The translations under genes were made by a program, and so were the position numbers. Shown here piece by piece: positions 2,654 through 24,425 of a stretch of 25,042 nt of DNA. Source of the DNA: a virus. How positions within the stretch are numbered: position 1 is the first letter of the stretch; the number at the start of each line of letters is the position of its first letter. The notes below the pieces were generated by a model. It searched no databases. It had not been told where the DNA came from and saw nothing but the letters and a program-made list of their open reading frames with translations. The stretch lies in the IMG/VR virus record IMGVR_UViG_3300017768_000075, positions 1 through 25,042 of that record; one strand, written 5' to 3'.

Positions 2654-2844
2654 AATTATTTTTAACAGAATTTACACATGATAAAAAAAGATACTCAGGA
2701 CCTACTATAGTTGCTGAGAGTTTACAAATGGCAGAAGACTCTGCTGCAGACCTAGGTGTAGAAGTAGTAGGGGAACTAGACAGTTTAGTTTCAGTAGTTT
2801 TAGAGTCACTATGGGAAGCTGACGAAGACAAAGTCTTGCATTGA
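2650..2844 (+). CDS. Small acidic hypothetical protein
   Basis: 64 residues, beginning in the ATGA overlap with the preceding stop. It has a beta-rich start (MKLFLTEFTHDKKRYSGPTIVAES), a helix (LQMAEDSAADLGVEVVGEL) and an acidic C-terminus (LWEADEDKVLH). There is no signal peptide or membrane segment. The layout suggests a small soluble alpha/beta protein. I do not recognise a function. The stop codon TGA overlaps a TTG that seems to start the next small gene. Confidence 0.6.
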   Translation: MKLFLTEFTHDKKRYSGPTIVAESLQMAEDSAADLGVEVVGELDSLVSVVLESLWEADEDKVLH

Positions 2845-2996
2845 ATAGCGAGTTAGTTTTTGTAATAGCTTTAAATGTAATATTCTTAATAGGATTATTA
2901 GGATTAAAATTTTATTTGAAAAGAAAAGCTGAAAAAAATATGAAAGCTTATCTTAGATATTTAAGACACAAGAGAAAATATAATGTACGAATATAA
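2841..2996 (+). CDS. 51-residue single-pass membrane protein with TTG start (too short for standard gene calling)
   Basis: This frame has no ATG at its start. TTG at 2841-2843 overlaps the TGA stop of the preceding gene (TTGA), and the frame runs without a stop to TAA at 2994-2996, overlapping the nuclease start by 14 bases. It fills what would otherwise be a gap of 138 bases in a gene-dense operon. The product begins with a clean hydrophobic segment (residues about 5-23, LVFVIALNVIFLIGLLGLK) followed by a strongly basic tail (KRKAEKN and RYLRHKRKYNVRI). The positive-inside rule places the C-terminus in the cytoplasm. Size and layout suit a small membrane effector such as a pinholin-like or regulatory protein. 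That role is inference; the reading frame itself is well supported. Confidence 0.6.
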   Translation: MNSELVFVIALNVIFLIGLLGLKFYLKRKAEKNMKAYLRYLRHKRKYNVRI

Positions 2997-3405
2997 ATGC
3001 ACAATAGATAGAGTAGTAGATGGAGATACTGTAGACGCTACTCTTGATTTAGGATTTTCTGTTTTATACAAAAGTAGAGTAAGGCTTTTTGGCATAGATA
3101 CTCCTGAGTCTAGAACAAGAAATAAAGATGAAAAAGCTAGAGGTAAACTAGCTGCTAAATTTTTAAGTGATGCTATAGATAAAGCAGATACTGTAGTTAT
3201 ACGTACAGAACTAAGAGACTCTAGAGGAAAGTTTGGCAGAGTTTTAGGCACAATTGTTTGTGATGATATAGATATAAATAATTCTATGATAGAAAATTTT
3301 ATGGCAGCAAAATATTTTGGTCAAAACAAAACTGCAATAGAAGCTGTACATCAATCTAATAGAACTAAACTTATTGAGTTAGGTTTGTTTGAGCCTGTTG
3401 AATAA
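2983..3405 (+). CDS. Staphylococcal nuclease-like (SNase/thermonuclease) endonuclease
   Basis: 140 residues, a complete SNase OB-fold domain. The family's catalytic residues are all visible: D13 and D15 in VVDGDT (calcium binding), R34, D39, T40 and E42 in VRLFGIDTPES, and R86 in GKFGRVLG. These correspond to D19/D21, R35, D40, T41, E43 and R87 of the Staphylococcus enzyme. The family cleaves DNA and RNA to 3'-phosphate products with calcium. There is no signal peptide, so the enzyme should act in the host cytoplasm, probably on host DNA or in DNA processing. The gene overlaps the small TTG-start gene upstream by 14 bases and the next gene by one base (TAATG). A nuclease in a late structural and lysis operon is unusual. 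Confidence 0.92.
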   Translation: MYEYKCTIDRVVDGDTVDATLDLGFSVLYKSRVRLFGIDTPESRTRNKDEKARGKLAAKFLSDAIDKADTVVIRTELRDSRGKFGRVLGTIVCDDIDINNSMIENFMAAKYFGQNKTAIEAVHQSNRTKLIELGLFEPVE

Positions 3406-3755
3406 TGGACGATATTGTAAAGTTAATAACTGAGTTAGGATTTCCTGTTGCTGCAGCATTAGGACTAGGTGTATTTGTTTGGAAACTAATTAATAGAATT
3501 ATAGACGGCATGGAATCTAAGATTGATGTTGTTGATGATAAAGTAAATGAACAATTAAAAGCTATGGAAGGTAGGCTAGATGCTAAATTAGAAGCACAAC
3601 ATGGAATATTGATTGCTTTGATAGACAGAGTTAGAAGTGTAGATAATGAAATTATTAGACAAGATACTTTACTTAAGACTATGTTAGGTGTACCTAATCT
3701 AGTACAGAACGATAAAATAGCAAAGGCAGATAGAGATGACCAAAGAAAAGATTAA
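3405..3755 (+). CDS. Single-pass membrane protein with long coiled coil (holin candidate)
   Basis: 116 residues. A short amphipathic N-terminus (MDDIVKLITEL) leads into one membrane segment (about residues 12-33, GFPVAAALGLGVFVWKLINRII). A long charged helix (35-85) and a polar tail (DKIAKADRDDQRKD) follow. The layout, a short N-terminus, one transmembrane helix and a cytoplasmic coiled coil, resembles BhlA/UviB-type holin-like proteins. No sequence signature that I can see proves this. It is the best holin candidate in the window because the lysozyme at 7440 has no signal peptide and needs a membrane pore. It begins by TAATG coupling to the nuclease and overlaps the CsgF start by 20 bases. 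Confidence 0.65.
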   Translation: MDDIVKLITELGFPVAAALGLGVFVWKLINRIIDGMESKIDVVDDKVNEQLKAMEGRLDAKLEAQHGILIALIDRVRSVDNEIIRQDTLLKTMLGVPNLVQNDKIAKADRDDQRKD

Positions 3756-4278
3756 AAGAAAAAGAGGCAGACCTTCTAATGCAGAACTAGTTGCTAGAAA
3801 GAAAGCAAGAGATAAAGACGTAGCTTTAATTATTTGTATGTATGTTGGTTTATTTATAGTCATAGCATTTTGTGTAAATCTAGCATTAGCTGATGAAATG
3901 AATTTTAAATTTAAGTCACCAAGCTTTTCAGGTATCAATACATCTCAACATTATTTAACAATAGAAAATCAAGAACATACTAGATATAAAACATTGCAAG
4001 AAGAAGTAGAAGCTTTAGTAGAACAGGCAGAAAGAGATGAACAGAATACTACAACTGCAAGATTTATAAGAAACTTTGAAACAAGAGTTTATGCAAAATT
4101 ATCTCAACAATTAGTTGATAAGTTGTTTGGAGAAACTGCACAAGATAACGGGACAATAGAACTTGAGGGGAATACTATTGACTATAAGGTTGATGAAACC
4201 AATATAATTTTGACAGTTACTAATGAAGCTAACAAACAAACAGTTATTACTTTTCCTCTTAATAGTTTTACTTTCTAG
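3736..4278 (+). CDS. csgF: CsgF-like curli secretion accessory protein with basic N-terminal extension
   Basis: 180 residues. Residues 29-52 form a hydrophobic signal segment ending in ALA, with predicted cleavage after A52. The mature start DEMNFKFKSPSFSG matches E. coli CsgF GTMTFQFRNPNFGG in exact register (M3, F5, F7, P10, F12, G14). This is the CsgF segment known to plug into the CsgG barrel. A helical middle (RFIRNFETRVYAKLSQQLVDK) and a beta C-terminus (DYKVDETNIILTVTNEAN) follow in family order. E. coli CsgF anchors the nucleator CsgB at the pore. Unusual is the 28-residue N-terminal extension with a KRKRGRPSNAEL segment like an AT-hook, placed before the signal segment. It lies directly before csgG, with its last 56 bases overlapping it, as for paired partners. 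Confidence 0.85.
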   Translation: MTKEKIKRKRGRPSNAELVARKKARDKDVALIICMYVGLFIVIAFCVNLALADEMNFKFKSPSFSGINTSQHYLTIENQEHTRYKTLQEEVEALVEQAERDEQNTTTARFIRNFETRVYAKLSQQLVDKLFGETAQDNGTIELEGNTIDYKVDETNIILTVTNEANKQTVITFPLNSFTF

Positions 4279-5026
4279 CTGTACTGTCTTTTATGATGAT
4301 GCTTTACAAAATCAAAAGATTTCAAAGTATGCTGAAAGAGTTGGAGTTATTAATAAAGAAATAGAGACTATTTTACCGGCAGATAAAAAACCTATAGTAG
4401 CTATATACCCAACTTCTTTTACAGACCAAACAGGACAAAGAAGAAGTAATAGTAATTTTGCAACGTTTAGCACAGCAGTCACACAAGCACCATATGTGCT
4501 TTTGATAAAGACTTTAAAAGCTGTATCTAACGGAGAGTTTTTTGAAGTTGTAGAAAGAATAGGTTTAGATAATCTAACTAAAGAAAGACAACTAATAAGA
4601 AATACCAGAGAAACATTTGATGACCCACAAAAATTAAAACCATTAGTTTTTGCAGGTCTTATAATGGAAGGAGCTATAGTCGGCTATGAAACCAATACAA
4701 GAAGTGGAGGTCGTGGAGCTAGACTTTTAGGTATAGGGTTATCAAAACAATATAGACAAGATACTGTCACACTGTCTTTGAGAACTGTATCTGTTTTAAC
4801 CGGTAGAGTTTTAATAGAAGTTACAGTATCAAAAACTATATTAAGTGTTGGAACTAATCAAGACGCTTTTAGATTTATAGAAAATAAAACCGAATTGATT
4901 GAAATAGAAAATGGTGATGTAGAAAATGAAAGCGTAACGATAGCTGTACAAGCAGCAATTGAAGAAGCTATTTTGTCTACAATCAAAAAAGGAATTGAAA
5001 AACAATATTGGAGCTATAAAGAATGA
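4223..5026 (+). CDS. csgG: CsgG-like outer-membrane lipoprotein pore for curli subunit export
   Basis: 267 residues (E. coli CsgG 277). A lipoprotein signal with a perfect lipobox, LSSC, puts the lipidated Cys at residue 20. This makes the start at 4223 convincing even though it lies inside csgF in another frame. Family segments follow in order: IYPTSFTDQTGQ, FSTAV, ERIGLDNLTKERQLIR, the transmembrane hairpins around IMEGAIVGYETNTRSGG and LSLRTVSVLTGRV, then SKTILS, FRFIE and the C-terminal helices ending at W. CsgG is known to form a nonameric 36-stranded barrel that exports amyloid subunits. By eye, E. coli constriction residue F56 is kept (F82) while Y51 and N55 are replaced by Ser and Thr. 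The E. coli C-terminal tail is absent. It ends in ATGA overlap with the curlin-like gene. Confidence 0.92.
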   Translation: MKLTNKQLLLFLLIVLLSSCTVFYDDALQNQKISKYAERVGVINKEIETILPADKKPIVAIYPTSFTDQTGQRRSNSNFATFSTAVTQAPYVLLIKTLKAVSNGEFFEVVERIGLDNLTKERQLIRNTRETFDDPQKLKPLVFAGLIMEGAIVGYETNTRSGGRGARLLGIGLSKQYRQDTVTLSLRTVSVLTGRVLIEVTVSKTILSVGTNQDAFRFIENKTELIEIENGDVENESVTIAVQAAIEEAILSTIKKGIEKQYWSYKE

Positions 5027-5730
5027 AAAAGTATTTACCAGTAATTATTTTTTTAAGTATAAATATTTTTGCTACAGACAATGAAATATCTATAGACCAA
5101 GCAGGAGCTACGGCAAATATAGATATTGAGCAGCTTGGGTCTGGAAACTTAATCGGTGGAGCTACTGCTGTATCAGGTACTATGACACCATTAGATTTAG
5201 ATGGTGCAACAATGACACTTGATGTAAACCAACTAGGTAATTCAAATATATTTAAAGGCGATATATATGCTGATAGTTATACAGGCTTTTTTGAATTTAC
5301 CGGAGACTCTAATACATTTGCCATACAGACAGACCCTAATAATACTTATGGTGCAGACAGTTCTAATATAAATGTACAAGTGTCTGGGTCATCAAATGCT
5401 TTTACTTTTAATCAGGCGACTAATGCACAAGCTTCTACATTAGATTTAGATTGGACAATAAATGGCTCTAATAATTCAATTACATCTGCAATTGACCAAG
5501 ACTTAGCTACAAACTATATGAACATAGATGGGTCTGATAATACTGTGACATTTGATGGTGACGGGTATCAAGGAGCATATTTTCATTTGACTCATACAGG
5601 AGGGTCAAGAACAATAAATGTTACACAACAAAGCACACTTGATAATGATTGGCTTAAGATTACTTCTAATGGCTCTAATGGTACTTTCTGTGTCAATCAA
5701 AACGACCAAGGCACTAGCACAAGCTGTTGA
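5023..5730 (+). CDS. Secreted curlin-like repeat protein, candidate CsgG substrate
   Basis: 235 residues, starting in the ATGA overlap with csgG. Residues 1-17 are a signal peptide (MKKYLPVIIFLSINIFA). The mature protein is built of strand-turn-strand units with a G-x-x-N turn flanked by alternating hydrophobic residues and Gln or Asn: around Q26, Q37/G39/N42, Q70/G72/N75, G94/N97, G122/N125, G148/N151, G170/N173 and G217/N219. The spacing is about 22-33 residues for most. Curlin repeats have the pattern S-x5-Q-x-G-x-x-N-x5-Q, so the first three units fit well and the rest are degenerate. It is almost free of Lys and Arg. Two Cys (C223, C235) sit at the C-terminus and could form a disulfide. 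Best read as a CsgA/CsgB-like amyloid subunit. A beta-helical adhesin is the alternative. Confidence 0.75.
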   Translation: MKKYLPVIIFLSINIFATDNEISIDQAGATANIDIEQLGSGNLIGGATAVSGTMTPLDLDGATMTLDVNQLGNSNIFKGDIYADSYTGFFEFTGDSNTFAIQTDPNNTYGADSSNINVQVSGSSNAFTFNQATNAQASTLDLDWTINGSNNSITSAIDQDLATNYMNIDGSDNTVTFDGDGYQGAYFHLTHTGGSRTINVTQQSTLDNDWLKITSNGSNGTFCVNQNDQGTSTSC

Positions 5731-6763
5731 TATAGGAACTGTAGAACAAGTATCAGGATATGCCAGAATAGAACGTGACAAAAATTATGATGTAATTACA
5801 GACTTTGGCATACAGTCTTACGACAAAGCACAAACAGAAGCAGGTCGTATGGGTATTAGATTTATAGACGATACAAGTATTCGGATTACTGAACATTCAA
5901 TGGTAGTCATAGATGAATTTGTATTTGATGCAAACCCAGATAATTCTAGATTAGCTTTAAATTTTGTAAAAGGTACAGCAAGATTTACTTCAAGTCTTAC
6001 TAATAAAATATCTAAAAAAAATATAAAGCTTACAACAAATAGTGCAGTAGTAGGAATTAGAGGAACAGACTTTACAATAACAGTAGAGCCAGATACAGGA
6101 AAAAGTTTGTTTATATTATTACCTGACAAAGATGGCAACCCATCAGGCGAAATATCTGTGACAACAGCAATGGGTACAGTAATACTTAATAAACCTTATC
6201 AGGCTACAACTACTAGAGTTTATGAAGCTCCACCAAGTAATCCGGTTATTTTAGATTTGTCTTTGGATTTTATAAACAATATGTTATTGATTGCTCCACC
6301 CGAAGAAGATAAGGATATAGAAGAAAATACTGAAAAAAAACAAGAGAATAATTTATTAGATTTTGATGAACTAGATGTAGATTATTTAGCTGATGATTCG
6401 CTAGATAAAGACGAACTAGAATTTACAGAATTAGACTATGATGCTTTGAATGTAAATTTTTTAGAAGATTTGTTAGATATAATTACTGAACTTGATGTTT
6501 TAGATAATGAGAAAGAATTAACTCAAACAATATCAGCAGTAAATATAGAAGGCACTACTATAGGGCAAGACCAAAAAACACAAATAACTACAATAGTTTC
6601 TGGACAAGAAGTAAAATTAACAAGGTCAGTCGCTTCATCTACATCAATACAAATAGATAGTGGAGAAAGCTACTTAGTAGTTTTAGAACAAGATGGTGTC
6701 ACTAATCAAGTTAAAGTAAATGGTGGTGGCTCTTCTGTAATTGTAATAAGGCAAAGTCAATGA
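5618..6763 (+). CDS. Secreted FecR-domain protein with acidic linker and curlin-like C-terminus
   Basis: 381 residues from the Met at 5618, which has an AGGAGGG element 13 bases upstream. Met 10 (5645) is an alternative start. Either gives a signal peptide ending near KALAQA. Residues about 38-200 form a FecR domain: IGTVEQVSGYARIER, an IRITEHSMVVIDEF strand, and the family hallmark VVGIRGTDFTI (G146-F152). Residues about 229-302 are an Asp/Glu-rich linker with repeated L-D-x-D-x-L pieces. The end (351-379) contains QDGVTNQVKVNGGGSSVIVIRQ, which matches a curlin repeat. No FecI sigma factor or TonB receptor is nearby, so iron signalling is unlikely. A role at the cell surface with the curlin-like protein is inferred. 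It overlaps that gene by 113 bases and the spanin by ATGA. Confidence 0.8.
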   Translation: MLHNKAHLIMIGLRLLLMALMVLSVSIKTTKALAQAVDIGTVEQVSGYARIERDKNYDVITDFGIQSYDKAQTEAGRMGIRFIDDTSIRITEHSMVVIDEFVFDANPDNSRLALNFVKGTARFTSSLTNKISKKNIKLTTNSAVVGIRGTDFTITVEPDTGKSLFILLPDKDGNPSGEISVTTAMGTVILNKPYQATTTRVYEAPPSNPVILDLSLDFINNMLLIAPPEEDKDIEENTEKKQENNLLDFDELDVDYLADDSLDKDELEFTELDYDALNVNFLEDLLDIITELDVLDNEKELTQTISAVNIEGTTIGQDQKTQITTIVSGQEVKLTRSVASSTSIQIDSGESYLVVLEQDGVTNQVKVNGGGSSVIVIRQSQ

Positions 6764-7152
6764 GTAAAATTTTATTAGGTGTAATAGCAGTTTTGATTTC
6801 TATATGTGGATTTTTGTATTGGCAAAATTCTTCTTTGCAATCTTTAAATAAAGCTTATGAGCTAAGAAATCAAGAACAAAAAGAAGCTATTGAAAGTATG
6901 CAACAAGATTTTGAAATGCAAACAAAAGGATTAGTAGAACTACAATCCAGAAATCAAGAGATTCAACAAGAAATGAATAGGTATCTTGATATTTTTAAAC
7001 GACATAATCTTAGCAAGTTAGCAGCAGCTAAACCGGGGTTAATAGAAAAGAGGGTAAACAATGGAACTAAAGAAGTATTTAATGGCATTGAAGCAGATAG
7101 TCGTATCATTGATAGTCTTGATGACGGCTTACAGTTGCAGTCTAATCCCTAA
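6760..7152 (+). CDS. Rz-like inner-membrane spanin (i-spanin)
   Basis: 130 residues. An N-terminal membrane anchor (about residues 4-22, ILLGVIAVLISICGFLYW) is followed by a long periplasmic coiled coil (NKAYELRNQEQKEAIESMQQ and on) and a conserved-looking end segment (LAAAKPGLIEKRVNNGTKEVFN) seen in phage Rz-type proteins. In Gram-negative phages the i-spanin pairs with an outer-membrane lipoprotein and fuses the inner and outer membranes in the last step of lysis. The partner gene starts inside this one in another frame and runs past its end, the classic Rz/Rz1 arrangement. It starts in the ATGA overlap with the FecR-domain gene, tying lysis to the curli cassette. Confidence 0.85.
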   Translation: MSKILLGVIAVLISICGFLYWQNSSLQSLNKAYELRNQEQKEAIESMQQDFEMQTKGLVELQSRNQEIQQEMNRYLDIFKRHNLSKLAAAKPGLIEKRVNNGTKEVFNGIEADSRIIDSLDDGLQLQSNP

Positions 7153-7435
7153 ACAAGTAGATGTAATTAGTAAACCTTTAAAAAGAACAATAGCTCAACC
7201 GGTCATGCCGAGAGAGATAAATCTTAATGAGCCATATTGGTTTGTAGTTTCTGAACTTAATGTAGATGAATTTTTAAAAAGAGTTAAAAAAGAAGAAGGT
7301 CGAATAGTCTTTGTAGCAATGTCAATTCCTGACTATGAATTGATGTCTTACAATATGCAAGAACTAAAGAGGTATATAAATGAACTTAAAGAAGTGGTGG
7401 TCTACTATAGAAAAGTCACTACCTATGAGGAGTAA
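7061..7435 (+). CDS. Rz1-like outer-membrane lipoprotein spanin (o-spanin)
   Basis: Up to 124 residues. The first Met is at 7061, but the Met at 7082 (MALKQIVVSLIVLMTAYSCS) gives a tidier lipoprotein signal of 18 residues before the Cys. The lipobox reads A-Y-S-C, weaker than consensus. The mature part is basic and has short proline-containing pieces (QPVMPREINLNEPYW), then a helical C-terminus. It is longer than lambda Rz1. The frame is nested within the i-spanin end for 71-92 bases and extends beyond it. Overlap with an Rz-like gene plus a lipoprotein signal gives the call. The TAA stop is five bases before the lysozyme start. Confidence 0.75.
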   Translation: MELKKYLMALKQIVVSLIVLMTAYSCSLIPKQVDVISKPLKRTIAQPVMPREINLNEPYWFVVSELNVDEFLKRVKKEEGRIVFVAMSIPDYELMSYNMQELKRYINELKEVVVYYRKVTTYEE

Positions 7436-7439
7436 GAAA

Positions 7440-7883
7440 ATGAAAATATCTAAAGAGGGTATTGCCCTTATAAAGAAGTTTGAAGGCTTAGAACTTACAG
7501 CATATCAAGATAGTGTTGGAGTTTGGACTATAGGTTGGGGTCATACTAAAGAAGTATTTGAAGGCATGGAAATATCTAAAGAAGAAGCAGAAGCATTTTT
7601 AGAAATAGAACTTGAAGAATTTGAAAGCTATGTAGAAGATTTAGTAGATGTAGAATTAGAACAATGTCAGTTTGATGCACTAGTATGTTGGACATATAAC
7701 TTAGGACCAACAAATTTATCTAGTTCTACAATGCTTAAAGTTTTAAATAAAGGTATGTATGAAGAAGTTCCATATCAAATTAAAAGATGGAATAAAGCAG
7801 GAGGAGAAGTGCTTAACGGATTAGTAAGAAGGCGAGAAGCAGAAGCTCTTTTATTTCAAGGAGAGCAATGGCATGAGGTATAA
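7440..7883 (+). CDS. GH24 (T4-type) phage lysozyme, endolysin
   Basis: 147 residues. The start at 7440 (MKISKEG) is chosen over an in-frame Met at 7380 because an AGGAG at 7427-7431 sits at ideal distance, and the longer version would overlap the o-spanin by 56 bases. The catalytic triad of T4-type lysozymes is complete with family spacing: E15, D24 and T30 in KKFEGLELTAYQDSVGVWT, followed by IGWGHT. The family's NLGPTNLSSST and RRREAEALLFQG segments are present. The enzyme hydrolyses the beta-1,4 bonds between MurNAc and GlcNAc in peptidoglycan. There is no signal peptide or anchor, so it depends on a holin. It follows the spanins directly and precedes structural genes. Confidence 0.95.
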   Translation: MKISKEGIALIKKFEGLELTAYQDSVGVWTIGWGHTKEVFEGMEISKEEAEAFLEIELEEFESYVEDLVDVELEQCQFDALVCWTYNLGPTNLSSSTMLKVLNKGMYEEVPYQIKRWNKAGGEVLNGLVRRREAEALLFQGEQWHEV

Positions 7884-9737
7884 ATGGCATTAGTAAAGTT
7901 TCAATTTAAACCCGGAATAAACAAAGAGTCTACAGCCTATGCTGCAGATGGTGGTTATGTTGACTCAGAAAAAATAAGATTTAGAAAAGGCGTTCCTGAA
8001 AAAATTAATGGCTGGACAAAAAATAGTACAAATACTTTTATTGGAACTTGCAGAAAAATACACAACTATAGTGATACCGGTTTAACAAACTATACAATTC
8101 TTGGAACACATCAAAAGCTTTATATTAAAGAAGGTAATGCTTTTAATGATATTACTCCTATACGATTAACTACTGCTGCAGGAGATGTCACATTTGCAGC
8201 GACAGAAAATTCAAGCACTCTTACTGTAACAGATGCAAACCATGGAGCTAATCCGGGAGACTTTGTTACCTTTAGTGGTGCACAAAGTTTAGGTGGCAAT
8301 ATAACAGCAGCAGTTTTAAATAAAGAATATCAAATTCAAACAACACCAACTGCAAATACATATACTATTACAGCTACAGTAACAGCTTCTGCAAATGATG
8401 TAGGGCAGTCAGGTGGAAGTAATACTGTTGGTACATATCAAATAACCGGTGGCTTAGATGTTTTTGTTTCAGGTTCAGGTTGGGGGTCAGGTGTATGGGG
8501 TGCAGGTGGTTTTGGAAGTACAAATCCAATTGCATTAAACAGCCAATTAAGAATTTGGACAATAGATAATTTTGGAGAAGATACTTTAGCAGCACCTAGA
8601 GGTGGTCCACTTTATTTGTGGGACGAAAGCAATGGAACTACAACTCGTGCAGTTCTTGCTAGTTCTTTAGGGGGTGCTAGTGATATACCTACTTCAATAC
8701 TACAAGTAATGATTTCTGATGTGGATAGGCATTGTGTTGCTTTTGGAGCTAACCCTATAGGCTCTGCTGTAGTAGACCCATTATTTGTTAGATGGTCAGA
8801 CTCTGAGTCTTTTTTAGATTGGACACCTAAAGCAACTAATAGTGCCGGTGGAGTAAAACTTTCTTCAGGTAGTCAGATTATTGGAGCCATACCTACTAGA
8901 CAAGAAACTTTAGTATTTACAGATACAAGTGTAGTTTCTATGAGATTTGTTGGCTCACCTTTTTATTTTTCTTTTAATGAAGTTGCTACAGGATTAGGCA
9001 TGATTGGACCTAATGCAGGTATAGCTATAGGAACTGCAGTATATTTTATGGACGATGGTGCTTTCTATAAAGCTGAAGGTAGTGTAGGAAAACTGCCATG
9101 TACAGTTTTAGATTATGTATTTAGTGACTTCAATCAATCACAAAAATATAAAGTTTTTGCAGCAAACAATTCTGCTTACAATGAAATAATTTGGTTTTAT
9201 CCTTCTTCAGGAAGCAATGAAATAGATAGATATGTTTCTTATAATTATTTAGAAAATGCTTGGGCAGTTGGTACAACAACAGATGGTTATACGAGAACAG
9301 CTTGGTCACAAGCTCCTACCCTAGATTTTCCTTTAGCTGCAGGTAAGTTAGACAATACAAATCTTAATTATTTATACAATCAAGAAGATGGCAATTTAGC
9401 AGATGGCTCAGGTTTTACATCATATGTAGAAACTGCAGATTTTGATTTAGACCCTGCCGGAGAACAGCTTATGTTTATTTCAAAAGTTATACCAGACTTA
9501 AAATTTTTACAATCAAGCAGTACTAATGACACAGTAAGTTTTATTCTAAGAGGAAGAAAATATCCTTTAGAAGATTTAGCTACTCTTTCAACTTCTAACG
9601 TAACTCCATCTACTACTTTTGTAAGTACACGAGGAAGGTCAAGACAAACTGCACTTAAAATACAATCTACATCAGGAGACTTTGGTTGGCGACTTGGTGA
9701 TTTAAGATTAGATATAAGAGCTGACGGAGAAAAATAA
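7884..9737 (+). CDS. Putative virion structural protein (neck/tail stabilisation type)
   Basis: 617 residues, starting right after the lysozyme stop. The opening (MALVKFQFKPGINKESTAYA) and a following EKIRFRKGVPEKINGW segment are typical of large structural proteins of marine phages. The general plan, repeated short beta units such as YTILGTHQKLYI and a bladed middle, suggests a beta-propeller-like tail accessory factor comparable to the P22 gp10 class. That comparison is architectural only. Residues about 196-212 form a Gly/Trp-rich loop (SGSGWGSGVWGAGGFGS). There is no signal peptide and no enzymatic motif. It overlaps the next start by one base. A tail hub or nozzle role is inferred. Confidence 0.65.
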   Translation: MALVKFQFKPGINKESTAYAADGGYVDSEKIRFRKGVPEKINGWTKNSTNTFIGTCRKIHNYSDTGLTNYTILGTHQKLYIKEGNAFNDITPIRLTTAAGDVTFAATENSSTLTVTDANHGANPGDFVTFSGAQSLGGNITAAVLNKEYQIQTTPTANTYTITATVTASANDVGQSGGSNTVGTYQITGGLDVFVSGSGWGSGVWGAGGFGSTNPIALNSQLRIWTIDNFGEDTLAAPRGGPLYLWDESNGTTTRAVLASSLGGASDIPTSILQVMISDVDRHCVAFGANPIGSAVVDPLFVRWSDSESFLDWTPKATNSAGGVKLSSGSQIIGAIPTRQETLVFTDTSVVSMRFVGSPFYFSFNEVATGLGMIGPNAGIAIGTAVYFMDDGAFYKAEGSVGKLPCTVLDYVFSDFNQSQKYKVFAANNSAYNEIIWFYPSSGSNEIDRYVSYNYLENAWAVGTTTDGYTRTAWSQAPTLDFPLAAGKLDNTNLNYLYNQEDGNLADGSGFTSYVETADFDLDPAGEQLMFISKVIPDLKFLQSSSTNDTVSFILRGRKYPLEDLATLSTSNVTPSTTFVSTRGRSRQTALKIQSTSGDFGWRLGDLRLDIRADGEK

Positions 9738-9943
9738 TGGCTAATAAATCTTCCATACCTTTACCTATACCAACACCTGAATATGTAATGGATAATGAAT
9801 TAATTACACGCAGAACTATTGAGCAAATAATTCAAGACATACATAGTGATATAGGTTTGATAGATGAATTGAAGTCAACGATAGTTTCTAAGGCTATGCG
9901 AAGACATCAGTTTTTATTAATGGGGTCTAAAGGAAATGTCTGA
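9737..9943 (+). CDS. Small helical phage protein of unknown function
   Basis: 68 residues, TAATG-coupled to the preceding structural gene. A Pro-rich N-terminus (IPLPIPTPEYVMDNE) leads to a helical region (RRTIEQIIQDIHSDIGLIDELKS) and a basic end. There is no membrane segment or motif. Its place between virion genes and its tight coupling suggest a small virion or assembly component. It overlaps the next gene by eight bases. Function unknown. Confidence 0.6.
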   Translation: MANKSSIPLPIPTPEYVMDNELITRRTIEQIIQDIHSDIGLIDELKSTIVSKAMRRHQFLLMGSKGNV

Positions 9944-10271
9944 TAGTTTAAAAGTTTTAGGACAGTCAGCACCTAGTGCAACTACAGAAACAGATTTTTA
10001 TACAGTACCTTCTCAAACACAAACAACTGTAAGTTCTATAGTAGTTTGTAATAGAGGTAGTACAGGAACTTATAGAATATCTGTGGCAGTAGCAGGAGCG
10101 ACAACTGCTAATCCACAGTATTTATTTTATGACAAATCGGTGAACGCAAATACTTCCGATACTATTGTTATTGGCATAACTCTTAATGAGGCTGATAAAA
10201 TAAGAGTATACGCAAGTACAGCAGACTTTAGCTTTAATGCGTTTGGTTGCGAAACAACAGAGGAAAGATAA
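9936..10271 (+). CDS. Small beta-sandwich virion protein
   Basis: 111 residues. Alternating hydrophobic strands (TDFYTVPSQTQTTVSSIVVCN, TYRISVAVAGA, SDTIVIGITLNEADKIRVYAS) predict an all-beta sandwich. This pattern is typical of small tail or head decoration proteins of marine phages. An AAAGGA ribosome site lies just ahead of the start, inside the preceding gene. The stop TAA overlaps the following ATG. No enzymatic motif. The structural role is inferred from fold pattern and position. Confidence 0.6.
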   Translation: MSDSLKVLGQSAPSATTETDFYTVPSQTQTTVSSIVVCNRGSTGTYRISVAVAGATTANPQYLFYDKSVNANTSDTIVIGITLNEADKIRVYASTADFSFNAFGCETTEER

Positions 10272-11989
10272 TGACTATACAAAATCAAGTAAAGAGCATA
10301 GCTCAACAAGGAAGATATGGAGACAGTACATTAGTACATATGGCTCCATCTGAAGTTGCAGGGTTAGCACAAATGGGTCAGATGACAATTAATCCACAAA
10401 CAGGATTGCCTGAAGCATTTGGTTTAAGGGACGCAATACCTATTGCAGCAAGTATCGTAGGTGGTGTGTTTGGTGGACCTGTAGGTGCAGGTCTTGGCTC
10501 AGGTCTTGCAACCGGAATACTAGAAGGTGATTTGAAAAAAGGTTTAATGGCAGGTCTTACAAGTTATGGTTTAGGCTCAATACTTCAAGGAGCAAATGTT
10601 GCTGCTAAAGGAGCACAAGCTGCTACAGACGCAACAGCTAGTGTTGCTAATGAAGCAATTTTAAAAGCCGGTATGGATACAACTACTGACTTAGTCACTA
10701 AAGAAGCTTTACAACAAGCTGCAGGTGAAGCATTAGCTGATGCCGGTAATCAGGCATTTATACAAGGAGCAGAAACTGCAGTAACTTCAGCAGCAGAAGC
10801 TGCATTACCTACATTAACTAATCCTGCTTCTTCGTTTGCTAGTGGTGCTAAAGATTTATTTGCCACTCCATTTGAAGGTGGAGCTAGAGCAAGTTTTGAT
10901 GCTCTTGCAGCAGGAGCTTCCCAACCCGGAGCATACATTCCTCTTACTATTGGTGGTGGTGGATTAGCTATAACACAAGCACAAGAAGCTTTTGAAAGAG
11001 ATGTTCTTGCTAGAGATATGGCAGCAGAAGAAGAAAGAAGAATGAACTATCTTAATAATCCTGAGCCAATTTTATACTCAGCTATTGGTGGACTTACAGG
11101 ATATAACGAAGGTGGAGAAGTAGTAAGGACTGCACCACAAAGAAAAACTGTACCGGTTAATCCAGAGTTTATTCCGGGAATAAATGCTGAAGCTTTATAC
11201 TTTGACCCAAGCACTCTTAATGTTCCTATAAGCGAACAAGTTGCAACAAACTTTAACCCTAATGATATTATTGACCCTTTTCAAAATTTAGGAACACCAA
11301 CTGACTCTGCAATAAATCAAGGACCAGAAGTATCAAATAGAGAATTAGCTATGACACCTCAAAATTCTTTAGGTGGATTTGGTGCTCCAATGAATACACC
11401 AACTACGCCACAGACTATTGACCCTTTTAAAGCATATACAGGTATTGCACCCCCTATGTTAGAACAAGTTAATACAGCAGAAGCTTCATATAATTTTACT
11501 CCTGACATAAGTTCATCAGTAGCAAGTTTTGCAAATATGCCTGTTCTTGGCTCAATGCAATTTAATGCAGGTGGGATTACTGACCTAGAGTTAATGAATA
11601 AAGTTAGAGATTACATTGAAGGTAGGTCAGAAGATGATAGCGTTGTAGCTGAGTTTATAGATAAATATGGAGCTGAAGCTTATAGTGCTTTTAGACAATC
11701 TGTACTTTTAGAAAACACACCTTCAGCAGAATTAGTAGAAGGTAAAATAGAAGGTAATAACTTAGGTGGTCAAGCTGATGATGTCATGGCTGATATGGGT
11801 GGTGAAACTGTAGCTGTATCACAAGGAGAATTTATTATACCTGCAGATGTAGTTTCTATTGCAGGTGGTGGAGATACTGACTCTGGTGCTGCTAAGTTTT
11901 ATGACATGATGGACAAGATAAGACAAAAAGGAACAGGCACAACAAAACAAGTAAACCCAATAAACTTTAATGAGGTATTTCCTGTATGA
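10271..11989 (+). CDS. Putative internal/ejection virion protein
   Basis: 572 residues. The start at 10271 is chosen because it forms a TAATG junction and has an AGAGGAAAG element in front; the in-frame Met at 10247 would overlap the upstream gene. Residues about 55-100 are Gly/Ala-rich and hydrophobic (IPIAASIVGGVFGGPVGAGL), able to enter membranes. A long Ala-rich helical part follows, then a Pro/Asn-rich disordered stretch. The motif GGLTGYNEGG is at 11087-11116. Near the end is SQGEFIIPADVVSIAGGG (from residue 517), a C-terminal module found in many phage tail and ejection proteins. In short-tailed phages such proteins leave the virion with the DNA to build a conduit through the envelope. 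That role is inference. Confidence 0.6.
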   Translation: MTIQNQVKSIAQQGRYGDSTLVHMAPSEVAGLAQMGQMTINPQTGLPEAFGLRDAIPIAASIVGGVFGGPVGAGLGSGLATGILEGDLKKGLMAGLTSYGLGSILQGANVAAKGAQAATDATASVANEAILKAGMDTTTDLVTKEALQQAAGEALADAGNQAFIQGAETAVTSAAEAALPTLTNPASSFASGAKDLFATPFEGGARASFDALAAGASQPGAYIPLTIGGGGLAITQAQEAFERDVLARDMAAEEERRMNYLNNPEPILYSAIGGLTGYNEGGEVVRTAPQRKTVPVNPEFIPGINAEALYFDPSTLNVPISEQVATNFNPNDIIDPFQNLGTPTDSAINQGPEVSNRELAMTPQNSLGGFGAPMNTPTTPQTIDPFKAYTGIAPPMLEQVNTAEASYNFTPDISSSVASFANMPVLGSMQFNAGGITDLELMNKVRDYIEGRSEDDSVVAEFIDKYGAEAYSAFRQSVLLENTPSAELVEGKIEGNNLGGQADDVMADMGGETVAVSQGEFIIPADVVSIAGGGDTDSGAAKFYDMMDKIRQKGTGTTKQVNPINFNEVFPV

Positions 11990-20900: not shown

Positions 20901-23210
20901 ACAGAAGAAAGAGTTATAGAAATACCTTTGACTGACCAAGAGATACAAGATGGTTTGCAAATAGGGGAAGACTATCAATGGATAAAAAAAGTATTTGACG
21001 ACTATCAAAAGTTTAATGAGTACACAATTAATTTTGGAGTAGACTCTGGCATACTTCAGGAAGAAAGAAGTGATAATGAATTTAGAGTTGAGTTAAATAA
21101 AGTTGGGTTTACTGATGTAGCTAAATCAGGAAACAGAGAGGCATTACTTAAAGCAGTTAAGATATATAACTCACGTGCTAAAGAAGGAGAGCTTATTGAA
21201 ACTAGAGGTACTGCACAAATATGGCGAGAAAACGCAGACCACTTTCCTTTCTATAGAGAAATGGAAAACGCTAGTAGAGAAATGTCTGCTCCTAGAATTG
21301 GCTCTGGATTACTTGCAGGTAATCCATTAGGTATAGAACTTAAAGGAAGTACTAAAGAGATAGATGTAGATTTCTTAGACGCTATATTAAGAAATCAACT
21401 TGCTATTATTACTGCAGGAATGAAGAACGATGGTTTATCTAAACTAGCTAGAAACTTTGTAGTGAGTGGTAGAGGTAGATTTATTAGACCTGATGAAGTT
21501 AAAGGCAGAATAGGTAAAGAAGTTATACCTGTTCATGTACAAGGAGTCCGAAGATTTTTAGAAATAGACGCAGAGCTTGGTCCATACCTTGAAGGTTTAA
21601 ATAATATAGGTGTAACTGATGATGGATTTTTATTAAAAGCTTTAGCAATACCGGCTTCATTACTTCGTGAGACTGTCACAAGAGACCCCGGATTTATGAT
21701 GGTCAATATGTTTAGAGACACAATGTCAGCCTTCGTTACAAGTGGAGCAGACTTCACACCTATATTAGATACAGCTAAAGGCTTTGCTTCTGATATGTAT
21801 GAACTAGAAAGATTTGGTGTACTTGGTGGTTATGATTATTCAAATGACGCAATGAGTATTTCATCTTTCTTAAAGAAACAATACAGACTTCAAGGCTTAG
21901 GTAAGAATGGGTCACTCAATCCTATAGACGCTACTGTTAAATTATGGGATTGGTTAGGACAACAAACATATAAATCAGATGGAGCAACAAGGTTAGCTGT
22001 TTACAATTCGGTCTTAAAAGAAACCGGTGATGTGGCAGAAGCAGCTTATCAAGCTAAAGAAATAATTAACTTTTCAAGAAGAGGAGCTAGTCCTATATTT
22101 AGAATTGTGACGACTGCCATACCTTTTATGAACGCAAGGATACAAGGACTTGATGTTCTTTGGAGGTCTGGTACAGGTCAGTATTCAGCAAAAGAGTTTG
22201 ATGCCGGTATTAGAAACGACCCTGAGTTGCAGAGAAAAGTTATAAAAAGTTTTGTAGCAAATGGAGCCTTGCTTACTTTTGTTACGGCTATGTATTATCT
22301 AATGGTTGGAGATACAGACGAATACAGAGCAAGACGAAGAGAAGAGAGAGATAACAATTGGTTGATTTTCACAGGTAAAGACCTTCCTCCTCTCAAGCTA
22401 CCTATTCCATTTGAAGTTGGTGTCATGTTTAAAGTAATTCCTGAAAGGACTATGGACTTTGTAGTCGGTGGAGCAAGTGGCGAAGAAACATTAGAGTCAT
22501 TTACAAGGGCAACAAAAGATACTTTAAAATTCAACCCTCTCTCATTCCAAGTATTAAAACCATTCATGGAAGCTTTTGTTTACAATCGCAGTAGCTTTAC
22601 CGGAAGTCCTATTGTGCCTCCATACATGGAGCAAACCATTGAAGAAGGACTTCAATATAGAGAAACCACAAGTGAGTTAGCTAAGATTGTCGGAGAGCAA
22701 TTCGGTATAAGTCCTTTGAAGTTAGAGTATATGTTGAATGGTTATTTAGGTACCCTTGGTGGGTATGGTCTGAGCCTCGTAGACACAGTTCTAAAAGGTC
22801 TTACCGGCAGAGACTTCATCAGACCTAGGGTAGACCAATTACCCCTCTTAAAACGTTTCTTTGGCAGTCCTTTGGGTGGTGGTTTACAACAGCAGTATTA
22901 CGAAATGAGAGAAGAGAGCAACAAAGTGATAGCAACTATGAACAAACTCAAAGATGAAGGTAGAGTAGACGAGTATCAATCCTATGCAAATAACAATCAA
23001 GGATACTTACAAACTAGAGGACAAGTATTAGCAATAGATAGAAGTTTGAAAGCTATTACAAAACAAGTGAACGCAGTTTACCAAAGCAAAGTTTTAAATC
23101 CTGAGCAGAAAAGAGTAGCACTTAGAAGTTTAGAGGAAAGACGCAACCAAGTTTTACAGTACATTCCTGATATGAGAAGGCAACAAGAAACATATTTAGG
23201 ATTGCAATAG
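14904..23210 (+). CDS. Giant polyvalent (ejected) virion protein with HExxH metallopeptidase and LPD38-like domain
   Basis: 2768 residues. Residues 1-30 form a small leading domain, then Gly-rich amphipathic helices (GFVKGVGGGILGGAEGLVNY) and a charged coiled coil (about 325-560). Residues 973-977 read HEAIH, a zinc metallopeptidase signature, with a likely third ligand in EEELVAE (1027-1033). Residues about 1190-1400 contain ITSAQQTPEKNYQ (I1240) and IQAMLWG (1390), a helical domain common in phage polyvalent proteins. About 2255-2700 resembles LPD38: RDPGFMMVNMFRD (2260), NFSRRGASPIFR (2389), a membrane segment from 2449 and NNWLIFTGKDLPP. Proteins of this class are packaged and delivered with the DNA, carrying several effector domains. 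Last gene of the + strand unit. The domain borders are by eye. Confidence 0.75.
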   Translation: MQRFNLPDGKYIQIEDNPSREYAIDLQNFLAEQYPDYYSPYKEEIDPTISGRVRETSKGFVKGVGGGILGGAEGLVNYFDSGNDSAIGDGLRGMQRYLNETLLPTEEGYEDLYTTKLGQGLGSFASFFVPGFGASKVFGTQQKLERLAKVKQGARTQTQRDAIDKMIRSVQRQPLIASASLAVPLGVSGQGDRLEQARVLGEEVSPFQEFLAETAGGLIGLSELYAPDRLLRKITKADGEVLDVAARIRSALTTGTAEAIQETMASIAQDAVARGVYSDEVPIGESMYDDFTVGGGTGAIADLLIRGFVGRRPIANKYALDLETEAVEESNEKEIFEKRKELDEEIQTTGPAIVREEDLFEEYEETKQPEVKKELQVIEELKIERQEDDTVLVVGVDTGKIYSTHKVEVASGFQEDANGNPLLDEQGERIQKFDLDPIATINEAALSAVEQKKINRTKFVNDAIDNVLDIGGLKESGSLKSLGKRVLSPLFNVVDVRTLSVMDSRINETRQQQAKKLEKLNKQAEKLKAKQLRDRKAGKTRLTKSGQPDLRYKQLDTPGTLDSTEGALDISPLKQITSETQTDEQKSLVELLQDRAEQVGLPRKNFYTYQEAQKILKPDDFNQLMMEKANIIYKYSEKEGAYLPKGRRNRRTGDRIASGLNPRGAGIQRYNFSPNKFQDTSRQAIYEALKSKNLEAKINSKEFQYFAEQLTGEKNYNKMNKGQKMVLLSRIYGMPRLDVKTKLPLLTPRTYTAQQMNSFYELFGLATGKSITENDIKTFFDNQNIKKSQQNIRQFKEDLINSGRLKKVKGKTLGNSQFKTDEMSKASRKEGETVEDYKARISTVLTAEQIADLGMTEEQFDIPLLPAPITNESMPNLAKELQGRLNKLGLKDIALRVTNFLNSSQNIKRDGTGRLVYVADPNRNDKMSLIDKEAVGLYDRALNTILLKLESIDPNNQLSEAELIDALSGRIDHEAIHAMMQLDLITEDEFLNLVRYAKKALPSDMQQEMAKSYGLGQSGGITARGFEEELVAELFRLYRKNPKGIIGKPRSLIERILNFLQEFLFSINASEFGSPTVLLERIASGEIGSRERGVKRNLRMTASNQSRFLQAAVEVEEPTEGGTQGRPSAQDILAGENPDPQMREVVSEDEINRSAIFEELENTLVQKGDISSAEMRSIFKQFAPQSRKFLPIPSYKELKKKVAEAARMGYDHLWYTRWAQKVPLLIGDANMTEFSAVFGITSAQQTPEKNYQDTLNTMIIARKIDPIKSPKRFINAIAKKNVGMKNPTRLKQIQEFYKTGLFQNKDTGAKTAFYANQIFEASQGRFTPFTVNDIHMRRQFGMIDPNKPEKNQESPTAIEYQFQNDLMRLLSTEVYNVNGVRRKYQEPSEIQAMLWGLQRYEGGTNPTNEGSYASAEAAAQEQIAEIQEMQREGKFDTATPLTDRMINSPQNIAYQNVKGTYGSVTQRNFQEAIAEQSPVIEVSVMPGTEIRGVWSESKLIPYRKKIQYFNSVFRAITEGNQLKFLKFLKIPHSITLNAGTYNGGYLTPGFNLSMPNASEATLRGVAQFLTDALYLDSTLITTPTAQGAKRQAAVLTKPDNEGFTIDEIKSIQERIQRNDPNGDIGEFVLQSTGNALTFTDKKEFNGLPYTKELYQTYINFLRDMFANTGYNLNTYGQKSELISYGPTRDDRTGTRGGIENLRDYTSTFNAPDIRRALLSNLYLPALRAFQSFQKELGVSVPTQGRSRNFAMPNSAFNPQTTTNKPTKDELADAEAIAFAKAEAENYTAGAVPLINPNASGLAIRTALQVRDGLKPENILPEDPYMRGSGTIPSKFENVVNKTGGKTKGKEKGGFFDALNNVTNANESARAFINRFRQNLIDNKQMLLTGVKILAGDSSQVLEFERRASTGAIQALRFVDNARGVLASMMKDGPVTLRDGLTATIKDPQLNLIKIFAPIYQNSAEYGIDFESLVKAYFIARRGSRLVEKKINVKQKDGTFTEERVIEIPLTDQEIQDGLQIGEDYQWIKKVFDDYQKFNEYTINFGVDSGILQEERSDNEFRVELNKVGFTDVAKSGNREALLKAVKIYNSRAKEGELIETRGTAQIWRENADHFPFYREMENASREMSAPRIGSGLLAGNPLGIELKGSTKEIDVDFLDAILRNQLAIITAGMKNDGLSKLARNFVVSGRGRFIRPDEVKGRIGKEVIPVHVQGVRRFLEIDAELGPYLEGLNNIGVTDDGFLLKALAIPASLLRETVTRDPGFMMVNMFRDTMSAFVTSGADFTPILDTAKGFASDMYELERFGVLGGYDYSNDAMSISSFLKKQYRLQGLGKNGSLNPIDATVKLWDWLGQQTYKSDGATRLAVYNSVLKETGDVAEAAYQAKEIINFSRRGASPIFRIVTTAIPFMNARIQGLDVLWRSGTGQYSAKEFDAGIRNDPELQRKVIKSFVANGALLTFVTAMYYLMVGDTDEYRARRREERDNNWLIFTGKDLPPLKLPIPFEVGVMFKVIPERTMDFVVGGASGEETLESFTRATKDTLKFNPLSFQVLKPFMEAFVYNRSSFTGSPIVPPYMEQTIEEGLQYRETTSELAKIVGEQFGISPLKLEYMLNGYLGTLGGYGLSLVDTVLKGLTGRDFIRPRVDQLPLLKRFFGSPLGGGLQQQYYEMREESNKVIATMNKLKDEGRVDEYQSYANNNQGYLQTRGQVLAIDRSLKAITKQVNAVYQSKVLNPEQKRVALRSLEERRNQVLQYIPDMRRQQETYLGLQ

Positions 23211-23223
23211 GTGATAGTCCGGG

Positions 23224-23240
23224 CTGTATCCATGATACAG
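23224..23240 (+). terminator. Stem-loop after the late operon, possible transcript end
   Basis: CTGTATC-CAT-GATACAG is a perfect seven-base-pair inverted repeat with a three-base loop, 14 bases past the stop of the giant gene and in the spacer between converging genes. No run of T follows (ACATAAAATATTT), so it is not a standard intrinsic terminator. It may mark or protect the 3' end of the late transcript. Confidence 0.35.
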
Positions 23241-23244
23241 ACAT

Positions 23245-23264
23245 AAAATATTTACCGGTAAATA
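23245..23264. promoter_or_regulatory. Perfect palindrome TATTTACCGGTAAATA (site 1 of a repeated motif)
   Basis: Bases 23249-23264 are a perfect 16-base palindrome, preceded by AAAA. The same layout, AAAATATTTAC then two bases then GTAAA, recurs at 24081-24098. Shared palindrome plus shared flank suggests a protein-binding site. The bound protein is unknown. Confidence 0.45.
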
Positions 23265-23333
23265 CTTTCTCTAGCTAGGGTCTGAAAGTTTTTTAGGACA
23301 CAACGTCCCACCTGCGAATCAGATTTTTTCAGG

Positions 23334-23681
23334 CTAGTATATTTCAGCAACAACTAATCTTTCGATTAGCTTTTCTTCTTTGAATGGTTTAGTTCTGAAG
23401 AAGCCTTCATACTGTGGATACCTAACATGAAAGAGTCTAGCGTAGAAAGATATGTAATCATTGCTTATCTTGAAGTCCCCACCTTTTGTTTCGACCTCAG
23501 CGTTCCACCTTATACGATTGATGATTGCCCATTGAGAATAGTTCTTTCTCCCTGAGGCTATCGCTTGTAAGGTGTACTCTTCAAACTTCTCCCATACCTG
23601 AGGGTTTTTCTTATGCCATTCCCACCAAGCCTTCTTCCGTTCTTTCAACTCTTCTTGTAATTGTTCTACCAACATAGACAT
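23334..23681 (-). CDS. Conserved-type phage hypothetical protein, Trp/aromatic-rich
   Basis: 115 residues. The start at 23681 forms a TAATG junction with the nuclease-like gene read before it, so the two are co-translated. It has an unusually high content of Trp, Tyr and charged residues: KKAWWEWHKKNPQVWEKFEE, NYSQWAIINRIRWNAE, then FKISNDYISFYARLFHVRYP and YEGFFRTKP. The pattern is one I associate with a frequent small protein of environmental phages that often sits by recombination or nuclease genes. No catalytic motif or membrane segment. A nucleic-acid-binding role is possible but not shown. Confidence 0.7.
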   Translation of the reverse strand: MSMLVEQLQEELKERKKAWWEWHKKNPQVWEKFEEYTLQAIASGRKNYSQWAIINRIRWNAEVETKGGDFKISNDYISFYARLFHVRYPQYEGFFRTKPFKEEKLIERLVVAEIY

Positions 23682-24034
23682 TACTCTTCCTCCTCCTCAA
23701 CTAATATACCTATAAATCTAATAAACTTTTCAGCGTCAATAACCAACAAAGGTTTAGTCTTGTTTCTTTTGATTACGACTATAGGCTCATAGCCTTTACA
23801 ATTCTCCTCAGCTTGTTCGTAAGCTTTCCAAATGTTCAGAGCCTCTTGGTTTTTACACTCAATACTGAAGGGAAACTTCTCTCTTGATTGCTTACCCATT
23901 ATCACATCTTCCCCTTGGCTTCCCATAGGTCGAGACTCTATATCCTCAGGGTCTAGTTTCAATATCTCTATCAACTTTTCTACTACCCACTTCTGTAGTT
24001 TCCTTCCTTTTGCTTTTGCAGATTGTGTTTTCAT
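23681..24034 (-). CDS. PD-(D/E)XK-type nuclease-like protein (Holliday junction resolvase-like)
   Basis: 117 residues. It shows the core order of small PD-(D/E)XK enzymes: an N-terminal helix (AKGRKLQKWVVEKLIEILK), a strand with a metal-binding Asp (GSQGEDVIMG, D43), and the E-x-K strand (FSIECKNQE, E59 and K61). A helix (NIWKAYEQAEENCK) and a further strand (YEPIVVIKRNKTKPLLVI) follow. This fold is used by resolvases and repair nucleases. A resolving or recombination role in phage DNA replication is likely but not certain. The C-terminus is a run of Glu. A palindrome lies about 47 bases upstream and could control this gene pair. Confidence 0.75.
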   Translation of the reverse strand: MKTQSAKAKGRKLQKWVVEKLIEILKLDPEDIESRPMGSQGEDVIMGKQSREKFPFSIECKNQEALNIWKAYEQAEENCKGYEPIVVIKRNKTKPLLVIDAEKFIRFIGILVEEEEE

Positions 24035-24080
24035 ACCTTAAAACTTACCATCATTTTTTTCCATCTCATTTCGCTGCGAG

Positions 24081-24098
24081 AAAATATTTACTAGTAAA
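24081..24098. promoter_or_regulatory. Palindrome TTTACTAGTAAA (site 2), candidate operator upstream of the nuclease pair
   Basis: Bases 24087-24098 are a perfect 12-base palindrome, in the 72-base gap between two - strand genes. With its flank it reads AAAATATTTACTAGTAAA, 16 of 18 bases equal to site 1 at 23245-23262. Read on the - strand it lies about 47 bases before the start at 24034, a fitting place for an operator or promoter element. Confidence 0.5.
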
Positions 24099-24106
24099 AC
24101 CTTTTC

Positions 24107-24415: not shown

Positions 24416-24425
24416 CTAGCAAGGA

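Follow-up and report, generated by a model that had tools for sequence, protein, structure and literature searches.

The 25,042-base window analysed here is the whole of an IMG/VR virus record (IMGVR_UViG_3300017768_000075), and the stretch at 3405-6763 within it is interpreted as a late-expressed, phage-borne curli-like (type VIII) export cassette, read together with the late and lysis genes that follow it. To this interpretation, which draws on sequence comparison and structure prediction, a probability of about one half is assigned. The cassette itself is already known: the same gene order has been published for pelagipodophages of the HTVC023P type (PMC9599517), and csgF and csgG for pelagimyophages (PMC7029224) and the methylophage Melnitz (PMC9004378). 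What is added to the known cassette is anatomical and comparative. Relative to the original prediction, which was made from the sequence of the window, the additions are a fifth cassette gene upstream, lysis genes downstream, and a curlin-like C-terminus on the FecR-domain protein.

The original prediction had placed four adjacent coding frames, joined by overlaps, at 3736-6763, and the list of open reading frames (ORFs) and the Pfam matches agree with both the positions and the families. The genes for CsgF, CsgG, a curlin-like protein (Cur) and the FecR-domain protein overlap in turn by 56, 4 and 113 nt, and the upstream gene of 116 amino acids (aa) at 3405-3755, here referred to as HOL, overlaps csgF by 20 nt. 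Indeed, every gene from 2983 to 7883 abuts or overlaps the next one (Table 1). The survey of phage genomes that had been suggested revealed a fixed order: of 117 distinct FecR loci whose upstream sequence exceeds 3.2 kb, 114 show HOL(-HOL)-CsgF-CsgG-Cur-FecR. A promoter and terminator scan was uninformative, returning 38 promoter-like sequences (46.0 expected) and seven terminator-like sequences (5.4 expected).

The original remark that csgG and csgF homologues have been noted in marine phages was also borne out, and PMC9599517 reports the cassette with FecR and further genes. The module described there resembles that of the window in its order, CsgF-CsgG-CsgA/B-FecR, with a preceding gene called HK and no CsgE, but sometimes has a second curlin and an adenylate cyclase after FecR, neither of which is present in the window. 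The pelagimyophage HTVC008M and Melnitz share CsgF, CsgG, the curlin-like protein and FecR with the window, and have two HOL homologues. Unlike the window, they carry a second curlin and an adenylate cyclase after FecR, their FecR ends lack the motif Q-x-G-x-x-N, and the nearest 7 kb or so carries no annotated lysis gene. Two types of carrier are accordingly distinguished below, the tail-bearing type, in which FecR has the curlin-like end, and the other type, to which Melnitz belongs.

Profile comparison of the channel proteins gave 152.7 bits for CsgG against PF03783 (cut-off 20.8), with the CsgG profile spanning most of the solved Escherichia coli CsgG chain, and 53.8 bits for CsgF against PF10614 (cut-off 25.8). 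The perfect lipobox claimed for CsgG is found in the translation as L-S-S-C with Cys20, and the claimed alignment of CsgF in register with mature E. coli CsgF is reproduced at the end of the signal peptide and at the mature N-terminus, with an E value (0.0048) that is weak when taken alone. The mature N-terminus of CsgF is the segment that lines the CsgG channel lumen (PMC7304575). The core channel parts of type VIII secretion, CsgG and a CsgF with the channel-lining N-terminus, are encoded in the window. As in enterobacterial curli (csgBAC-csgDEFG), CsgG and CsgF homologues are accompanied by a curlin-like substrate; unlike that system, the E. coli-type cut-offs of NCBIfam are reached by neither channel protein (139.7 bits against 505 for CsgG), the curlin-like protein falls under its own cut-off, and CsgE was not found. 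The lack of a CsgE homologue, noted in the window from the outset, extends to ten large related records, none of which has one at E<=0.001 although an E. coli control was positive, whereas CsgC and CsgD were covered solely by the Pfam scan of ten window proteins. Since CsgE was not found, the cassette is not claimed as an enterobacterial-type curli system. HfaB, the anchor protein of the Caulobacter holdfast, is likewise a CsgG-superfamily lipoprotein serving a surface structure, but the HfaB model gives the window protein only 16.0 bits of 300, compared with 139.7 from the CsgG model, and CsgF is present in the window.

An open CsgG/CsgF pore serving nutrient or cofactor uptake by the infected cell has been proposed (PMC7029224; PMC9599517), and the failure to find a CsgE gate in the ten related records would be in keeping with it. 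However, such a pore leaves the constrained exported proteins and the fixed five-gene order unexplained, and is considered very unlikely. As a separate observation, CsgF has a basic extension of 34 aa before its signal peptide, present in three of 11 alignment rows, which contains an AT-hook-like KRKRGRP (Pfam AT_hook 0.05, under the cut-off) and is retained in close relatives, including one on another backbone (L028).

The putative substrate of the channel has a signal peptide and Q-x-G-x-x-N units in which Gln and Asn are invariant between both phage types. The window protein is without regular repeats and reaches 14.3 bits against the curlin family PF07012 (cut-off 20.7). Elsewhere in its family, 13 of 25 members match PF07012 at E<=0.5 (best 2.1e-5); the Melnitz homologue exceeds the cut-off (26.0 bits), the HTVC008M homologue has no match, and the second curlins of the two phages both exceed it (33.1 and 21.8 bits). 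The predicted structure is all beta (mean predicted local distance difference test score, pLDDT, 83). Among predicted viral structures, four match this model at E<=0.001, and three of the four bear the name 'Curlin associated' (best template modelling score 0.80, E 1.9e-6), whereas Foldseek against the PDB gave none at E<=0.001, and a second-look PDB comparison returned general beta-helices, phage tailspikes included (SufD: Z 17.0, root-mean-square deviation 3.2, 199 aligned). Because the PF07012 score is under the cut-off and the PDB provides general beta-helices as opposed to a match, the protein is called curlin-like and not curlin. Of the original prediction, a phage-borne CsgG/CsgF channel accompanied by a curlin-like, presumably exported protein is supported, this protein being in place as a candidate substrate although its own PF07012 score is sub-threshold. 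In the tail-bearing type the curlin-like protein has two nearly invariant cysteines close to its end; such cysteines are unusual for curlins.

It could be argued that the protein is a tail or virion component whose resemblance to curlins is superficial, given that structural genes flank the block, that the second-look PDB matches are general beta-helices with tailspikes among them, and that Foldseek gave no PDB match at E<=0.001. The signal peptide, the fixed pairing with CsgG/CsgF, the conservation of the Q-x-G-x-x-N positions to the other phage type, the homologues above the curlin cut-off and the 'Curlin associated' fold matches all argue to the contrary, and make this explanation highly improbable.

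The FecR-domain protein of the window, the gene for which possibly starts at 5645 as opposed to 5618, scores 36.8 bits against PF04773 (cut-off 24), the sole family over its cut-off. FecR proteins of the FecI type have a cytoplasmic FecI-binding domain, a transmembrane segment and a receptor-binding C-terminus. The FecR domain was found in 25 of 25 aligned members of the phage family, and the other 11 families listed include no regulator domain, neither a FecI-binding nor a C-terminal one; the phage protein does not, on this comparison, look like a FecI-type sigma regulator. In an alphaproteobacterial-class sample of 385 genomes, 121 contain its domain at E<=1e-15; among the matches listed the domain is often part of a long open frame (up to 6,913 aa) and, one genome with phage contigs aside, extends no further than profile position 273 of 378. 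In NCBIfam the top match is Lsa33, a surface adhesin (4e-6, far under the cut-off), and a sequence search of solved structures with the FecR alignment gave no match. These findings bear on the published account, in which FecR and its partners act as a sensor or regulator of the cassette, comprising an iron-dependent regulator, a histidine kinase and an adenylate cyclase (PMC9599517), whereas here FecR is regarded as an exported protein. A CHASE2-adenylate cyclase does follow FecR in many relatives, though not in the window, but with only the FecR domain recognised, its recurrence in long cellular frames, the adhesin as nearest match and no kinase family among the HOL proteins, regulation by this route seems quite unlikely. 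In a Pseudomonas genome (L231, 7588-10809) a FecR-domain gene sits beside an adenylate cyclase gene on the opposite strand, and because that pair lies away from csg genes, the FecR-adenylate cyclase pair may predate the phage cassette.

HOL is probably the 'histidine kinase' gene of PMC9599517, as position and copy number agree, yet kinase families (HisKA, HATPase) were detected in 0 of 14 HOL members at E<=0.5. We read HOL as a membrane-anchored cytoplasmic coiled coil, on the basis of prediction. Of 125 distinct CsgF genes, 122 have it in the 600 nt upstream, as one copy in 67 and as two in 55; the converse count, 168 of 169, is biased, the loci having been fetched mostly through cassette genes. 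Among 50,697 phage records HOL occurs in six only (two of HTVC008M, four of Melnitz), all with csgG. The seventh csgG record in that set is a 1,499-base record of Salmonella phage S.Kent 1-2-1 (OR851715.1), the csgG-like gene of which shows 39% identity and is possibly host DNA. Within the 385 class-sample genomes, HOL was found only in one that holds phage-like contigs and in none of the other 384. In the L028 contig a 361-aa gene of unassigned family (2708-3793) occupies the place of HOL between the SNase-type (staphylococcal) nuclease gene and csgF.

The last 30 residues of the window FecR protein resemble a single curlin unit, Q-D-G-V-T-N ... V-I-V-I-R-Q. A pattern for this end (Q.G..N, devised after the end had been seen, with K also allowed) is present in 47 of 51 distinct phage FecRs, 40 of them with strict Asn, compared with none of 1889 other viral ORFs, one of 54 curlin-like proteins and five of 3165 cellular ORFs; the five cellular ORFs hold 4 to 30 Q-x-G-x-x-N motifs. 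With a profile built from 837 curlin repeats, the FecR end ranked third by family at a score that is not significant (6.6 bits, E 2.4), behind the curlin-like proteins (8.5 bits) and the second phage curlin (7.8) and ahead of an unrelated structural protein (5.2). Conversely, a profile of the FecR end searched against 3039 cellular ORFs placed first two secreted proteins of Aquimarina (8.9 and 6.8 bits, E 0.16 and 0.73), each with three Q-x-G-x-x-N; where four or more motifs were needed to count as a curlin, one of the top ten was a curlin, compared with 0 of 30 for control segments. In the phage set, curlin-like proteins made up 10 of the top 30 for the FecR end, 15 for the end of the other FecR type, and 5 and 0 for controls. 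These profile comparisons are not significant and are suggestive at most. The FecR end alone has no Pfam match, and the model of the FecR protein is poor (pLDDT 54) and unfit for a fold search.

The relation between the FecR tail and the second curlin gene was examined in 174 distinct complete FecRs, gathered from the earlier loci and from two added scans (best 80 of 305 and best 80 of 574 relatives). Among the 147 with at least 1.2 kb downstream, 101 have the tail only, 44 a second curlin only, two neither (L248, L308) and none both; the pattern behind these counts admitted R as well, added after five exceptions had been seen, and the strict Asn version gives 87, 44, 16 and none, respectively. 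Detection of the second curlin took in short ones of 121-127 aa, and none follows FecR in the window or in eight of eight large related contigs. In a tree of 93 FecRs trimmed of their ends (a quick tree with long branches flagged and only one independent pair) the tail switches once, and because of this single change the exclusion is one evolutionary contrast without statistical weight. It fits the tail having taken over a minor-curlin role, or the reverse.

Table 1. Features of the export cassette and its neighbours in the 25,042-base window
Feature	Position	Strand	Basis or remark
SNase-type nuclease	2983..3405	+	PF00565 8e-13, phrog_452 1.4e-37; upstream neighbour, outside the cassette
HOL, small cassette gene, 116 aa	3405..3755	+	one predicted transmembrane stretch and coiled coil
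CsgF homologue, predicted outer-membrane channel partner, 180 aa	3736..4278	+	PF10614 2.9e-14; alignments
CsgF N-terminal extension, 34 aa, basic, AT-hook-like	3736..3837	+	precedes signal peptide; alternative start 3838
CsgG homologue, predicted outer-membrane secretion channel lipoprotein, 267 aa	4223..5026	+	PF03783 1.1e-44; solved CsgG 4e-62
Curlin-like exported protein, predicted beta-solenoid, 235 aa	5023..5730	+	family, fold and homologue comparisons
Exported FecR-domain protein, 381 aa	5618..6763	+	PF04773 5.6e-9; conserved A-x-A-like cleavage region in alignment
FecR C-terminal curlin-like unit	6665..6760	+	residues 350-381, Q358 to Q379; motif test
Rz-like inner-membrane spanin	6760..7152	+	phrog_739 1.2e-15
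Rz1-like outer-membrane spanin, lipoprotein, overlaps Rz	7061..7435	+	phrog_812 3.5e-11
Endolysin (phage lysozyme)	7380..7883	+	PF00959 3.3e-47, phrog_7 3.9e-60
Virion structural protein, closes the block	7884..9737	+	phrog_3287 2.5e-68

Directly downstream of FecR, at 6760-7883, the predicted spanin pair and endolysin make up what is recognisable by family matches as a phage lysis cassette. Rz, Rz1 and lysozyme stand together as in the spanin/endolysin cassettes of tailed phages; the difference is that export genes, which are not known lysis genes, are inserted among or before the lysis genes. In a first set of 57 csgG contigs, lysozyme lies 546-2397 nt after FecR in 47, and of the remaining ten, eight have too little sequence and the other two, L028 and L034, continue for more than 6 kb without a lysozyme. 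Among 82 distinct tail-bearing loci with at least 3 kb downstream, 73 have lysis genes no more than 4 kb after FecR: Rz with lysozyme in 37, a phrog_1544 protein with lysozyme in 27, a holin of the gene transfer agent type with an M15 peptidase in six (Pfam-confirmed in L371 and L390), lysozyme in two and Rz/Rz1 in one. The remaining nine have none, although in one (L332) they occur further on, and the phrog_1544 protein could not be identified as a holin. The tested lysis families were found in 0 of 31 tail-less loci, a count to be read with the fact that the lysis models were built from the lysis genes of the window's clade, so that other lysis genes would escape. To judge from these matches, the cassette accompanies non-homologous lysis sets in the window's clade and, since its carriers include different backbones (L380, for example), is mobile between backbones. 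The linkage may reflect joint timing or merely a shared late operon. The words lysozyme, spanin, holin and endolysin do not appear in the main text of PMC9599517, figures aside, and no mention of the spanin/endolysin linkage or of the curlin-like FecR end was found in the accessible text of the literature searched, including PMC9599517, PMC9004378, PMC7029224 and PMC7304575.

Such linkage could feasibly mean that CsgG, alone or together with CsgF, assists lysis by forming a pore that breaches the outer membrane or governs lysis timing, the other proteins being passengers. A pinholin-like reading of this kind has been published for Melnitz, where a lysis-timing pore was proposed from the neighbouring thyX and ssrA (PMC9004378). 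The window, however, already has Rz, Rz1 and endolysin, and conservation of the curlin-like and FecR proteins is no lower than that of CsgG, with ratios of nonsynonymous to synonymous substitution (dN/dS) of 0.06-0.08 compared with 0.09. Furthermore Melnitz, which is said to be without csgA and csgB (PMC9004378), has two genes annotated as 'curlin associated repeat protein' (L045, MZ577097.1, at 7740-8459 and 9518-10534), both over the Pfam curlin cut-off. A role confined to lysis is, on this evidence, rather unlikely. Coating of the infected cell against competing phages, in other words superinfection exclusion in place of a glue for cells and debris, has been proposed also (PMC9599517) and is compatible with surface export, but a place among late and lysis genes points to late expression, a stage at which exclusion would bring the least benefit, and we regard this purpose as unlikely.

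Comparison with two close relatives (L060, L095) gave dN/dS values of 0.06-0.09 for CsgF, CsgG, Cur and FecR, whereas the structural genes g7884, g9737 and g9936 lie at 0.20-0.29 and g11986 at 0.14-0.16 (genes being named by their start positions). At this close range the values are low in all four cassette proteins, indicating that all four, and not the pore alone, are kept. DNA identity from HOL to lysozyme with four further relatives (L010, L021, L029, L017) is 81-93%, falling to about 53-77% just upstream and 69-70% just downstream. This does not suffice to show the cassette and lysis genes moving as one recombination unit: g11986, further downstream, is equally similar (82-93%), and at four-fold sites HOL, Rz and lysozyme stand out (75-86%), whereas Rz1 (63%) and the csg genes (46-68%) are lower, near neighbours being at 42-45%. 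The origin of the cassette has been published as alphaproteobacterial. Neither FecR nor HOL was found near csgG in 74 non-phage loci (best 80 of 555 relatives, mostly Flavobacteriaceae) or near csgFG in five alphaproteobacterial-class loci.

Several further observations concern carriers and surroundings. Whole or partial phage cassettes occur on short contigs in bacterial metagenome-assembled genomes (L123, L124, L125 and L202; Maricaulis, Rhodobacteraceae, Saprospirales), which look like phage contigs binned with bacteria; L124, of the other type, has an upstream lysozyme-like gene that best matches tail lysozymes. In L380 (3556-7669) and L385, the cassette and an adenylate cyclase are followed by head-completion genes of the siphophage type, a third kind of backbone. 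An SNase-type nuclease gene lies upstream of the cassette in many related loci. The structural protein g7884 is 34-35% identical to its counterparts in HTVC023P and HTVC027P and 41.5% identical to that of phage DSL-LC04 (the closest cultured relatives by this protein range from 33 to 42%). At the far end of the window (23200-25042), gene orientation and GC skew both reverse at about 23.2 kb, the final genes lying on the minus strand.

Taken together, the export cassette could operate as follows. Late in infection, the host outer membrane would acquire a pore built of nine CsgG and nine CsgF subunits; through this pore the curlin-like protein would pass unfolded, to fold or polymerise on the surface; and the FecR protein, exported to the periplasm or the surface, would supply the minor-curlin role of nucleating or anchoring, which in the other phage type may fall to the second curlin gene. 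Around lysis, the dying cell and its debris would be coated or glued by the product. A more specific version, in which FecR is a hybrid minor curlin, with its FecR domain anchoring it to the host envelope and its terminal unit seeding the curlin-like protein in place of a second curlin, and in which the export system and the CsgF-tied inner-membrane coiled-coil protein also belong to the lysis programme, so that adhesive is laid at the burst, is tentative and, as a whole, doubtful. A number of results weigh against the cassette as interpreted here. These include the sub-threshold PF07012 score and lack of regular repeats of the curlin-like protein; the failure to detect CsgE; the absence of the tested lysis families from the tail-less loci and from nine of the tail-bearing ones; and, for FecR, the poor model, the single switch on the tree, the lack of a Pfam match to its end, and the non-significant outcome of the profile comparisons between that end and curlins. 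In addition, with two more distant relatives the cassette proteins have dN/dS values of 0.21-0.46 compared with 0.14-0.24 for structural proteins, a comparison near synonymous saturation that does not favour the cassette, and no cell clumping was seen with Melnitz (PMC9004378), though Melnitz is of the other type.

The exported material may serve as glue, shield or lysis aid, its candidate purposes including catching neighbouring cells, keeping other phages off and trapping debris. Of the possible purposes named in the original prediction, among them gluing, a superinfection block and opening of the outer membrane at lysis, several have been proposed in the papers cited. Such phages are reported to be common across the surface ocean (PMC9599517). 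The linkage to lysis genes, the curlin-like end of FecR and the small protein tied to CsgF turn a vague story of auxiliary genes into testable ideas: late expression, a disguised minor curlin, and a fifth component absent from the bacterial curli systems examined here.

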